From Curtobacterium sp. MCBD17_032 (GTDB lineage: Bacteria; Actinomycetota; Actinomycetes; Actinomycetales; Microbacteriaceae), in assembly GCF_003234855.1 (NCBI RefSeq), contig NZ_QKTO01000003.1, positions 310,001-374,000 on the forward strand: DNA of 64,000 nt, read 5' to 3'. Below the pieces are notes generated by a model, which was not told the DNA's origin, made no database searches, and saw nothing but the letters and a program-made list of their open reading frames with translations. Positions 4,644-50,235 of this stretch are shown here, in pieces. The first letter of the stretch is position 1. Each line of letters starts with the position of its first letter. A program made the translations under genes and the position numbers.

Positions 4644-5009
4644 TCAGCCGATCCGGGCCACCCGCACGTCGATGCGGGTGGGCGTCCGCCCACCGGCCTG
4701 TGCAGCCTCGAGCGCCGCGTCGTGCACGGCGTGCGCGACGCCGGGCGCGGGTGCGGTCCCGTCCGTCCCGATCGCCAGGCGGAGCACCGACCCGTCGACG
4801 CCGACGCGTGCGCCGGCGGCACCCGCACGACCCGAGGCGAGGCGGCGCACGGCCGCGACGGCGCCGCCGATGGTCGGCCGCGGTCGGTAGAGGTCGGTGA
4901 CGCCGGGGACGGCGAGGACGGCGGCCTCGACCGCCAGGAGCGCCTCGACGGTCCACGGGGCGGCGGTCTCCTCGGCGACGTCGCCGCCGGGGGTGGTGTG
5001 GTCGGTCAT
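4644..5009 (-). CDS. Small Asp23/Gls24-like protein
   Basis: 121 residues, last gene of the sigma-factor operon. It contains VEALLAVEAAVLAVPGVTDLYRP and then alternating strand/helix segments (SVLRLAIGTDGTAPAPGVAHAVHDAALEA, TRIDVRVARI) that look like an abbreviated Asp23 fold. It starts in a 4-bp ATGA overlap with the upstream Asp23 gene, so the two are translationally coupled and probably made in a fixed ratio. The family assignment is weaker than for its neighbour. Confidence 0.6.
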   Translation of the reverse strand: MTDHTTPGGDVAEETAAPWTVEALLAVEAAVLAVPGVTDLYRPRPTIGGAVAAVRRLASGRAGAAGARVGVDGSVLRLAIGTDGTAPAPGVAHAVHDAALEAAQAGGRTPTRIDVRVARIG

Positions 5010-47812: not shown

Positions 47813-48469
47813 TCAGAAGCGCTCGCCGGTCGGGTCCTGCGCACCCAGGTCGGCGAGGTCGTCGCCGCCGACCGGCTCGCCGGCCCAGTCCACGAGGCGC
47901 CACCCGTCAGCGGTCGAGCCCTCGAGCTCCACGACGCCGGTGTTCTCGAGGTGCCGGTTCCGCCCCAGGTCGTTCGGCACGTTCCGTGCGGTGACCGCGG
48001 CCCAGATCCGGATCGCCGCCCCGTGGCTGAACGCCGCGACGACGTCGGCCCCGGTCTCCTCGATCTGTCGCACGGCGTCGTCGTACCGCGCGAAGAACGC
48101 GTGACCGTCCTCCGCGCCGGGCATGCGCTCGTCGCGGTCGCCGGCCGCCCAGGCGTACGCCGCGGCGAGGTACTGCTGCACGGAGACCGTGTCGCGCTTG
48201 CCCTGCAGGTCGCCGGCCTCGATCTCCCGGAGGCCCGGCAGCACCACGGGGTCGAGGTCGAGCGCCCGGGCGAGCGGGGCCGCGGTGAGCTGCGTCCGCA
48301 CCATCGACGAGGTGAACAGTCGTTCGATGCCCCGGTCGCCCAGGGCGCCCGGTAGCGCGTCGGCCTGCTCCTGCCCGAGGTCGGTCAGGCCGGGTCCGGG
48401 CACCTCGGCGTCGAGCAGGCCGGTCACGTTGGCGGGGGTCTGTCCGTGGCGGACGAGCAGGAGTCGCAT
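47813..48469 (-). CDS. Histidine phosphatase family protein
   Basis: 218 residues. Begins MRLLLVRHGQTPANVTGLLD with catalytic RHG (His9), FTSSMVRTQLTAAPLARAL, GLREIEAGDLQG, and AFSHGAAIRIW with the second His. Phosphoglycerate-mutase-like phosphatase, substrate unknown. ATG six bases after TAGGGT (48476-48481, minus). Confidence 0.9.
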   Translation of the reverse strand: MRLLLVRHGQTPANVTGLLDAEVPGPGLTDLGQEQADALPGALGDRGIERLFTSSMVRTQLTAAPLARALDLDPVVLPGLREIEAGDLQGKRDTVSVQQYLAAAYAWAAGDRDERMPGAEDGHAFFARYDDAVRQIEETGADVVAAFSHGAAIRIWAAVTARNVPNDLGRNRHLENTGVVELEGSTADGWRLVDWAGEPVGGDDLADLGAQDPTGERF

Positions 48470-48496: not shown

Positions 48497-48619
48497 CTAC
48501 CCCTGACGGGTGTTCCAGCGCGGGTTCTCCTTGTTGATGACGTACACGCGCCCGCGGCGCCGCACGACCTGCGAACCGGGGATCTTCTTCAGTGCCTTGA
48601 GCGAGTTGCGGACCTGCAC
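48497..48619 (-). CDS. rpmJ: Ribosomal protein bL36 type B (zinc-free paralogue)
   Basis: 40 residues, [20 protein letters not shown] then [20 protein letters not shown]. The Cys/His zinc ribbon of ordinary bL36 is absent, the mark of the type B (YkgO-like) form used when zinc is scarce. GTG start five bases after AAGGAGG. Its leader contains a Zur-like box, and it diverges from a CobW-type gene, both typical of Zur regulons. Too short for most gene finders. Confidence 0.93.
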
Positions 48620-48633
48620 GTGCGCCTCCTTGT

Positions 48634-48648
48634 TGATAACGGTTTTCA
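48634..48648. promoter_or_regulatory. Zur-like operator
   Basis: TGATAACGGTTTTCA (reverse TGAAAACCGTTATCA) is a 15-bp near-palindrome matching the Zur box TGATAAtcnTTATCA/TGAAAA-type pattern. It sits between bL36B and the CobW-like gene, in the leader of one and at the -35 zone of the other, so zinc-loaded Zur could shut off both. Confidence 0.82.
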
Positions 48649-48650
48649 TG

Positions 48651-48657
48651 TACCGTA
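48651..48657. promoter_or_regulatory. Overlapping divergent -10 elements
   Basis: Plus strand TACCGT (48651-48656) is seven bases before the CobW-like ATG; minus strand TACGGT (48657-48652) points toward bL36B. The two hexamers overlap on the same five base pairs. Confidence 0.5.
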
Positions 48658-48663
48658 CTGCAC

Positions 48664-49677
48664 ATGGCCGTCGTCCCGATCACCCTCGTCTCCGCCCTCC
48701 ACGACGTCGACGCCGCACGCATCGCCGCGCGACTGTCCGACGGGCACCGGATGCACGCCGCCGGCAGCGCGTCCGTCGCAGCACGAGCCGTGGCGGACCG
48801 GGCCGAGCGCCTCACCGACGTCTGCGGCCCCGGTGCGCGGCACTCGCTCGTCGTCACCCTGCCGGTCGGCGGCGACGCCCGCGCCGTCGGGATGATGCTC
48901 GCGAACGCGGCCCGGGCCGAGCGGGGCGACGACCGCGTGCTCCGTCACGTGGTGTCCGTGCTCCGCGCCGACGAGGCCGAGCACCTGCTCTGGTCCGGCG
49001 TCGACGACGCGTTCGTCGCCGGCGAGCGGCTCGCGGCACTGGTCGAGTACGCGACCGTCATCGTGCTCGACCGCACCGACCGCCTGCCCCCGGCACGGCG
49101 CCGGGCCCTGGTCGCCCTCGTCCACCGCTGTGCGCCGTCGGCGGTCGTCCTCGCCGACGAGCGGGTGCACAGCGCGGACGACCTCCCGGCGTCGAACAGC
49201 GGCGCGACCCGGGTGCTCGCCGGTGCTGCCGGGTGGATGCGCGCCCTGTCCACCGGAGCCGACGACGTCGACCGTCCGGCCACGGACGGACTCACTGCGC
49301 TGCGCTACCGTGATCCGCTGCCGTTCCACCCGTCCCGACTGGCGGACGTCGTGGCACACGACCTGGCAGCCGGCCCGGACGGTCGGGTGCTGCGCTCCCG
49401 GGGGTTCTTCCGCCTCGCGTCCCGTCCCGACCACGTCGGCTCCTGGTCGAGCGTCGGGGCGATGCTCGCGCTCGATCCGACCGCGAACCCGTCCTGGGAC
49501 GAGGACGCCCCGATCGGGCAGGCGCTCTGGTTCGTCGGCGAGGACCTGCACGCCGAGCGCCTCACACGGGCACTCGACGGCGCGCTCATCACCCCGGCAG
49601 AGCTCCTCGCCGGACCGGACCTGTGGCGGTCCTGGGCCGACCCGTTCCCGGTGTGGCCCGTCCTCGGCCGCGACTGA
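48664..49677 (+). CDS. CobW C-terminal-domain protein lacking a Walker A loop
   Basis: 337 residues. The C-terminal half has CobW_C character ([59 protein letters not shown]) and [32 protein letters not shown] corresponds to the GTPase core, but the N-terminus ([20 protein letters not shown]) has no GxxGxGKT loop and the CXCC zinc motif is not seen. It may be a GTP-independent zinc handler. Leaderless start after TACCGT, Zur-like box upstream. Confidence 0.8.
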
Positions 49678-49710: not shown

Positions 49711-50235
49711 GTGGCGATCGAACCGGACACGAAGAACTGGACCTGGGTCATCGATGCGGCGTGCCCGGACTGCGGCTTCGACGGCAGTGCGGTGACGATC
49801 GGGGACGTCCCGGGCATCATCGACGCGAACACGGACGGCTGGCCCGAGCAGCTGGACCGCCCGGACGTGCGGGAGCGCCCGGACGGGTCGACCTGGTCGC
49901 CGCTCGAGTACGGCGCCCACGTCCGTGACGTGCACCGGAAGATGACGGAACGCCTCGAGCTGATGCTCGCCGAGGACGACCCGCTCTTCCCGAACTGGGA
50001 CCAGGACGCGACCGCGGTCGCCGACCGGTACGGCGAGCAGGACCCCGCGACCGTCGCCCGCGAGCTCCGTGCCGCCGCCGACCGCGCCGTGGCGGCCTTC
50101 GGCGCGGTGTCCGACGACCAGCTCGACCGGACCGGGCGCCGCTCGGACGGCAGCGGCTTCACGGTCGCCACGCTCGCCGTGTACTACGCGCACGACCCCG
50201 TCCACCACCTGTGGGACGTGCGCCGGACCAGCTGA
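49711..50235 (+). CDS. DinB/mycothiol-dependent metalloenzyme-like protein
   Basis: 174 residues, four-helix DinB-like pattern: WSPLEYGAHVRDVHRKMTERLELMLAED, VARELRAAADRAVAAFGAV, VATLAVYYAHDPVHHLWDVRR. Histidines in HVRDVH and HDPVHH are placed to bind one metal. Such proteins use mycothiol as thiol cofactor in actinobacteria; substrate unknown. GTG start. Confidence 0.78.
   Translation: MAIEPDTKNWTWVIDAACPDCGFDGSAVTIGDVPGIIDANTDGWPEQLDRPDVRERPDGSTWSPLEYGAHVRDVHRKMTERLELMLAEDDPLFPNWDQDATAVADRYGEQDPATVARELRAAADRAVAAFGAVSDDQLDRTGRRSDGSGFTVATLAVYYAHDPVHHLWDVRRTS

Follow-up and report, generated by a model that had tools for sequence, protein, structure and literature searches.

COG0523 proteins are generally thought to require GTP for zinc hand-over, and YjiA is a zinc-bound GTPase with intact motifs. 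The Microbacteriaceae, the family of the Curtobacterium strain studied here, also include Leifsonia xyli. Predicted actinobacterial Zur regulons contain yciC-type genes, and L. xyli is among the organisms with zinc-free ribosomal paralogues in its predicted Zur regulon; the section concerned describes the COG0523 regulon member as a putative P-loop GTPase and is silent on loss of the GTPase (PMC2823685). The literature already describes a COG0523 protein that is under Zur control and has no GTPase motifs, mycobacterial Rv0106/Mrf. Rv0106 lacks both GTPase motifs, and such proteins were suggested to have no GTPase activity (Haas et al. 2009, PMC2770081). As Mrf, Rv0106/MSMEG_6069 recruits the hibernation factor Mpy, and zinc sets Mrf stability (2026 review, PMC13418864). 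In Mycobacterium smegmatis, MSMEG_6069 belongs to the Zur regulon and has zinc-free ribosomal genes next to it; the same Zur-controlled cluster holds a second CobW-like protein, MSMEG_6048 (PMC7174638).

CobW-type proteins that have no P-loop are common in this bacterial class and no novelty in themselves. The Mrf model NF047431 matched 101 genomes of a class-level sample of 296, 16 of them over the cut-off. In these 16 loci the P-loop is always missing, and 11 have a CxSC-type site; the P-loop was also absent from all 30 best-matching loci (L064-L093). Within the literature searched (titles, beginnings of abstracts and open-licence articles), no work was found joining pseudoGTPase with COG0523, and none of the matches listed for COG0523, CobW, Rv0106, Zur or L36 dealt with this lineage.

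The window, a stretch of 64,000 nucleotides from Curtobacterium sp. MCBD17_032, carries two divergent genes at 48497-49677, with 44 bp between their starts as read from the sequence. bL36B, a palindromic Zur-type box and the divergent CobW_C gene form a single compact module. We collected 19 related loci, all from Curtobacterium, the nearest being 91% identical over residues 1-334 of the CobW_C protein. The minus-strand gene (rpmJ2/ykgO, 48497..48619) encodes a type B zinc-free bL36 of 40 residues, assigned from Pfam, NCBIfam and its orthologues. Its likely start is the GTG at 48619, with the open reading frame ending at 48497, and a ribosome-binding site (AAGGAGG, 48625..48631, minus strand) could be read directly 5 nt ahead of this codon; a longer frame of 50 residues, from an ATG at 48649, would span the box. 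The first-pass annotation of this DNA had described a 40-residue type B bL36 without Cys or His, and this was borne out: Pfam Ribosomal_L36 matched at 59.2 bits (cut-off 26.1, E 4e-16), and the domain contains none of the Cys or His residues that serve as zinc ligands. The NCBIfam model for type B L36 gave 69.6 bits vs a cut-off of 70 with the 50-residue frame as query. All 19 Curtobacterium loci have a divergent bL36B orthologue, whose first residue is V or M each time, and the genome also encodes a zinc-type bL36 (ligands C, C, C, H).

Two neighbouring genes were considered as members of the module and rejected. A histidine phosphatase gene (47813-48469) starts 27 bp past bL36B on the same strand, adjoins bL36B in 19/19 Curtobacterium loci and may be co-transcribed with it in this genus. 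It was not found at any of 29 other Microbacteriaceae loci, yet it is kept in 3/3 genomes that lack the module. The DinB gene (49711-50235) lies directly downstream of the CobW_C gene in only one of the 19 Curtobacterium loci; it is about 2 kb away in 14 and was not found in 4, one of which is on a short contig.

The plus-strand gene (48664..49677) encodes a putative pseudo-GTPase of the COG0523/CobW type, 337 residues long, as judged from Pfam and NCBIfam scans and from dN/dS. Pfam CobW_C (PF07683) matched with 51.9 bits (cut-off 22, E 6.9e-14) at residues 212-308 (49297..49587, plus strand), a region that includes a PFHP motif, and the same scan found no match to the cobW nucleotide-binding domain. 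The N-terminal domain (residues 1-176, 48664..49191, plus strand) lacks the P-loop, CxCC and NKxD. Walker A (GxxGxGK[ST]) was found neither in the window protein nor in any of the 19 Curtobacterium loci, and it was likewise not found in 26 of 29 loci from other Microbacteriaceae, which are the higher-scoring matches of the family-wide search. CxCC was found neither in the window protein nor in any of these 48 loci, and no switch segment was found in the window protein. In the alignment, Asp16 and Ala17, each invariant in 20/20 sequences, occupy the places of the final P-loop Gly and the Lys. At the NKxD position the window protein reads DRTD, which is variable among relatives; the segment around it (IVLDRTD, residues 133-139) resembles a worn NKxD strand in a region that is not conserved. 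The absence of an N-terminal Walker A motif from this CobW_C protein, claimed in the first-pass annotation, thus holds for the window and the whole genus set. An alternative start restoring a GxxGxGKT loop was ruled out, as the upstream in-frame stop lies only 8 codons before the ATG and the sole start-like codon among these 8 is a CTG.

Potential metal ligands were also examined. Among the 20 aligned sequences at most one Cys is nearly invariant, and His 13, 28, 60, 95, 154, 222 and 257 are invariant in all. A His-bearing C-terminal tail is present in 17 of the 20 (L005-L018, L020-L022) and missing from the other three, the window protein and its closest relatives L004 and L019; loss of these tail histidines is a possible last step in the loss of metal contacts. 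An HxH C-terminus, absent from the window protein, was seen in 12 of 16 aligned Microbacteriaceae proteins of other genera.

The first-pass annotation had also proposed structure prediction as a check for a degenerate GTPase fold. An AlphaFold2 model built with 20 sequences had a mean pLDDT of 55.1; residues 1-176 were mostly confident (pLDDT 61-93 by block, apart from a single block at 48) and the remainder poor. Since pLDDT stayed below 50 in the CobW_C region, the C-terminal half of the model was not interpreted and no fold is claimed for it. The sole Foldseek match under E 1e-3 was E. coli YjiA (7.3e-4), with a TM score of 0.33-0.35 to be read in the light of a model of which half is unreliable. 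The VIA search gave Z scores of 10.5-9.8 to UreG, HypB and YjiA, with other P-loop enzymes tied within 1. The N-domain is thus predicted to be of G3E type, as judged on a model and not on a solved structure, and a worn GTPase fold appears to remain in it. When the family profile was searched against PDB sequences, all matches were weak (E at least 0.1) and fell on aldose and xylose reductases.

The CobW_C gene is under purifying selection. Its dN/dS is 0.167 to L004 and 0.154 to L019, and over 190 pairs the median is 0.267 and the maximum 0.447, with a median synonymous difference of 0.43 per site. Constraint is uneven along the protein, with a median dN/dS of 0.304 for residues 1-205 vs 0.206 for residues 206-337; the former P-loop region (residues 1-30) is weakly constrained, with a median of 0.482 and some pairs above 1.

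A Zur-type operator (48634..48648) lies between both genes. This box, TGATAACGGTTTTCA, is a near-palindrome of 7-1-7 layout with half-sites TGATAAC and GTTTTCA around a central G. The window box shares 12 of 15 bases with the Streptomyces Zur consensus, TGAAAATGATTTTCA (PMC2823685), and 14 with a candidate Zur site given in the same source for cg0042 of C. glutamicum. The pattern TGNNAANNNTTNTCA, picked after the window box had been seen, occurs at 3 sites in the 3.32-Mb genome vs 0 for the backward control, and the looser pattern TGANAACNGTTNTCA with one mismatch at 4 sites vs 1. The second genome site is just upstream of a putative znuA-znuC-znuB operon followed by a Fur-family gene, names that come from context since all NCBIfam matches fell below their cut-offs; the genome has two Fur-family genes, one of them this gene behind the znu operon. 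The likely Zur is encoded by the Fur-family gene at C12:7889. The third site (L059, G000:C22:171000-180500, box 4771-4785) overlaps the probable start of a gene for a siderophore-type binding protein, and this gene is followed by those for a SAM methyltransferase, a FecCD-type permease and an ATPase, the last identified by reading only. The nearest NCBIfam models for the binding protein and the permease are those of a 'putative F420-0 ABC transporter' (TIGR03868 and TIGR03869, both below cut-off), and the box suggests that this operon may instead be a zinc or zincophore uptake system.

The position of the box is fixed. It stands at exactly -30 from the start codon of the CobW_C gene in the window and in 19/19 Curtobacterium loci, matching 9 or 10 of the 10 specified positions. 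The other Microbacteriaceae supplied 29 loci. In all 24 of these with bL36B, the CobW side of the bL36B start carries a box of at least 8/10 no more than 50 bp away, and mononucleotide shuffling attained the score of each box in no more than 1.2% of trials. A -10-like element of the CobW_C gene (TACCGT, 48651..48656, plus strand) ends 7 nt ahead of the ATG, and TAnnnT occurs at -13 to -8 in 20/20 sequences (window and 19 Curtobacterium loci), from which a leaderless mRNA is predicted. The 15-bp Zur-like box of the first-pass annotation was found as described, rare in the genome and conserved in position, and Zur-type control of the module is well supported at the sequence level, in other genera as well.

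We then looked at the distribution of the two genes. Among 199 Microbacteriaceae genomes, 45 had a CobW-like match and 53 a bL36B match, not counting 7 further genomes with only a weak A-type bL36 match. Both genes were present in 43 genomes, only the CobW-like gene in 2 (one partial match and one weak match) and only bL36B in 10, a co-occurrence with a Fisher p of 2e-31 that is not corrected for kinship. In the 43 genomes with both, the genes were divergent neighbours less than 3 kb apart in 39, adjacent in another orientation in one and non-adjacent in 3. Within Curtobacterium, 47 of 66 genomes had a CobW-like match and 19 had none. In three of these 19 that were examined, bL36B was not found genome-wide, and the 3.65 kb at the same position contained neither a CobW_C gene nor a box of at least 9/10; all three retain glpD and the histidine phosphatase. 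Of the 47 Curtobacterium matches, 41 were at least 66% identical, 5 were 37-41% identical and one was partial. The five genomes concerned (G527, G528, G518, G521 and G536) have only the 37-41% identical version; the usual one, of 66-100% identity, may have been replaced through transfer.

Some genomes contain additional copies. Two genomes of one genus (L024 in G034 and L026 in G109) have two CobW-like copies each, one beside bL36B and one elsewhere. Another (L095, G072:C202) has a very divergent P-loop-less relative beside bL36B, with an end branch of 3.14, and a second CobW-like copy on another contig (L047).

Neither named family accommodates the window protein, which scored 86.8 bits with ZigA (NF038288, cut-off 600) and 45.4 bits with MRF (NF047431, cut-off 375). 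The ZigA score exceeded the MRF score in 8/8 Microbacteriaceae proteins scanned; L100, whose P-loop is intact, itself scores just 498.8 bits with the ZigA model. In a first, midpoint-rooted tree, the CobW-like family apparently grouped with ZigA; this tree left out L023, L094, L108, L114, ten of the 19 Curtobacterium loci and open reading frames below 290 residues, and its rows were trimmed to the last 420 residues. A full-length tree with outgroups, which leaves out 29 further rows, the longest branches among them, placed the Microbacteriaceae family on the Mrf side (100/99), and an AU test did not reject the alternative, in which the family joins ZigA (p 0.26, for a group named after the trees had been seen). 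The C-terminal tree put the family with ZigA types, with 96/89 at a 31-row node and weak values of 84/64 at a wider 35-row node. The full-length and C-terminal trees thus conflict, one setting the family nearer Mrf and the other nearer ZigA.

Three members of the same clade, L036, L040 and L042, kept the P-loop and also stand beside bL36B with the box. NKTD is kept in L040 and L042, and CxCC is absent from all three. If loops were not regained, the P-loop in these proteins would mean that its loss in the Microbacteriaceae line was separate from that in Mrf, and their lack of CxCC would mean that the metal site was lost first. The sequences suggest this order, and that loss of the GTP site followed on more than one occasion. 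A tentative scenario, to which we give rather less than an even chance, is that in Microbacteriaceae a ZigA-type zinc GTPase under the Zur switch of bL36B became a ribosome-linked non-GTPase factor, separately from Mrf. If true, GTP-free ribosome factors evolved twice from zinc chaperones.

That the 337-residue protein is a Zur-controlled pseudo-GTPase is, in our judgement, very likely. From the single operator between the divergent starts, zinc-bound Zur would repress both genes. In zinc shortage, bL36B could replace zinc-type bL36, and the 337-residue protein would act as a pseudo-GTPase adaptor through protein-protein contact, its most likely target being either the ribosome under zinc starvation or the hibernation factor, much as Mrf recruits Mpy; a gene with Ribosom_S30AE_C (long hibernation factor) is present in the genome. 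Taken as a whole, this reading with the ribosome as target stands only just short of an even chance. In its favor are the conserved operator, spacing and bL36B linkage, the joint absence of both genes from the three Curtobacterium genomes examined, the missing P-loop and CxCC, the modelled fold that is kept, the purifying selection, the single CobW_C gene, the hibernation-factor gene and the precedent of Mrf. Against the ribosome role, the P-loop keepers L036, L040 and L042 also adjoin bL36B, so linkage alone does not indicate a GTP-free role. Also counted against it are the 10 of 53 genomes with bL36B and no CobW-like gene, the ZigA scores and C-terminal tree, the missing CxSC and the weak constraint on residues 1-30.

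The same ZigA scores and C-terminal tree, together with the stronger constraint on residues 206-337, would also fit a ZigA remnant that grips an old COG0523 client enzyme and not the ribosome, holding or inhibiting it in zinc starvation with neither GTP nor transfer of zinc. This is rather unlikely, as no client is known and the linked gene is ribosomal. A GTP-independent zinc chaperone or buffer with non-canonical ligands, such as the conserved histidines, is less probable again: seven invariant His and the HxH ends of other genera speak for it, and against it stand the loss of CxCC and, for the window protein, L004 and L019, that of the His tail. With at most one nearly invariant Cys as well, the metal-buffer mode of the first-pass annotation is weakened, and its scaffold mode is the best fit among those it had proposed; the Mrf precedent does not figure in it.

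The remaining explanations fare worse. The modelled GTPase-like fold and the NKxD-like strand at 133-139 would allow for nucleotide binding through an unusual site, which is nonetheless improbable given the invariant Asp16 and Ala17 at the P-loop Gly and Lys and the unconserved NKxD region. It is still harder to see a decaying, functionless gene here: catalytic motifs are lost, the gene is unmatched in 19 of 66 Curtobacterium genomes and residues 1-30 are weakly constrained, but dN/dS is 0.15-0.17 to the nearest relatives, frames are intact and the promoter layout is fixed. The least credible idea is that the protein serves a full-length COG0523 GTPase of the same cell as an inactive subunit, a case for which M. 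smegmatis, with MSMEG_6048 besides Mrf in one Zur-controlled cluster (PMC7174638), offers a parallel. No full-length paralogue was found in this genome (26 contigs, completeness 99.99), where the CobW_C profile matches one gene only and the two cobW-domain matches are, by reading, Ffh/SRP54 and a TadA-type ATPase. The idea of a full-length partner, also raised in the first-pass annotation, is contradicted in this genome, short of a partner gene that falls into an assembly gap.

The pseudo-GTPase adaptor thus remains our preferred reading, in which it is probably through contacts with other proteins, and not by moving zinc, that the protein works. The conserved family has lost the GTP and metal sites and keeps CobW_C and, according to the model, the fold, apparently under a zinc-starvation switch; it would separate the protein-binding role of a chaperone from its metal and GTP roles. 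One locus offers a natural series (P-loop with NKTD, P-loop only, neither), and a dedicated Mrf-like factor for zinc-starved ribosomes becomes testable beyond mycobacteria.

Among known systems, YjiA (PDB 4ixm, 1nij) is the nearest solved fold to the window N-domain by Foldseek, but identity in the structural alignment is 16%. ZigA/YciC is the best-scoring named family and shares Zur control (predicted for the window), the PFHP motif and CobW_C, whereas the window protein, in contrast to this zinc metallochaperone GTPase, has no P-loop, switch region, CxCC or NKxD. Mrf shares with the window protein Zur control (again predicted for the window), COG0523 type, the lack of GTPase motifs, CobW_C and linked zinc-free ribosomal genes. 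The two differ in that the window protein reaches 45.4 bits on a model with a cut-off of 375 and has no CxSC, a site present in 11 of 16 Mrf loci. The C-terminal tree sets the window protein with ZigA. Recruitment of a hibernation factor is described for Mrf and would be a prediction for the window protein, and the window gene adjoins bL36B whereas Mrf adjoins S18/S14/L33/L28.
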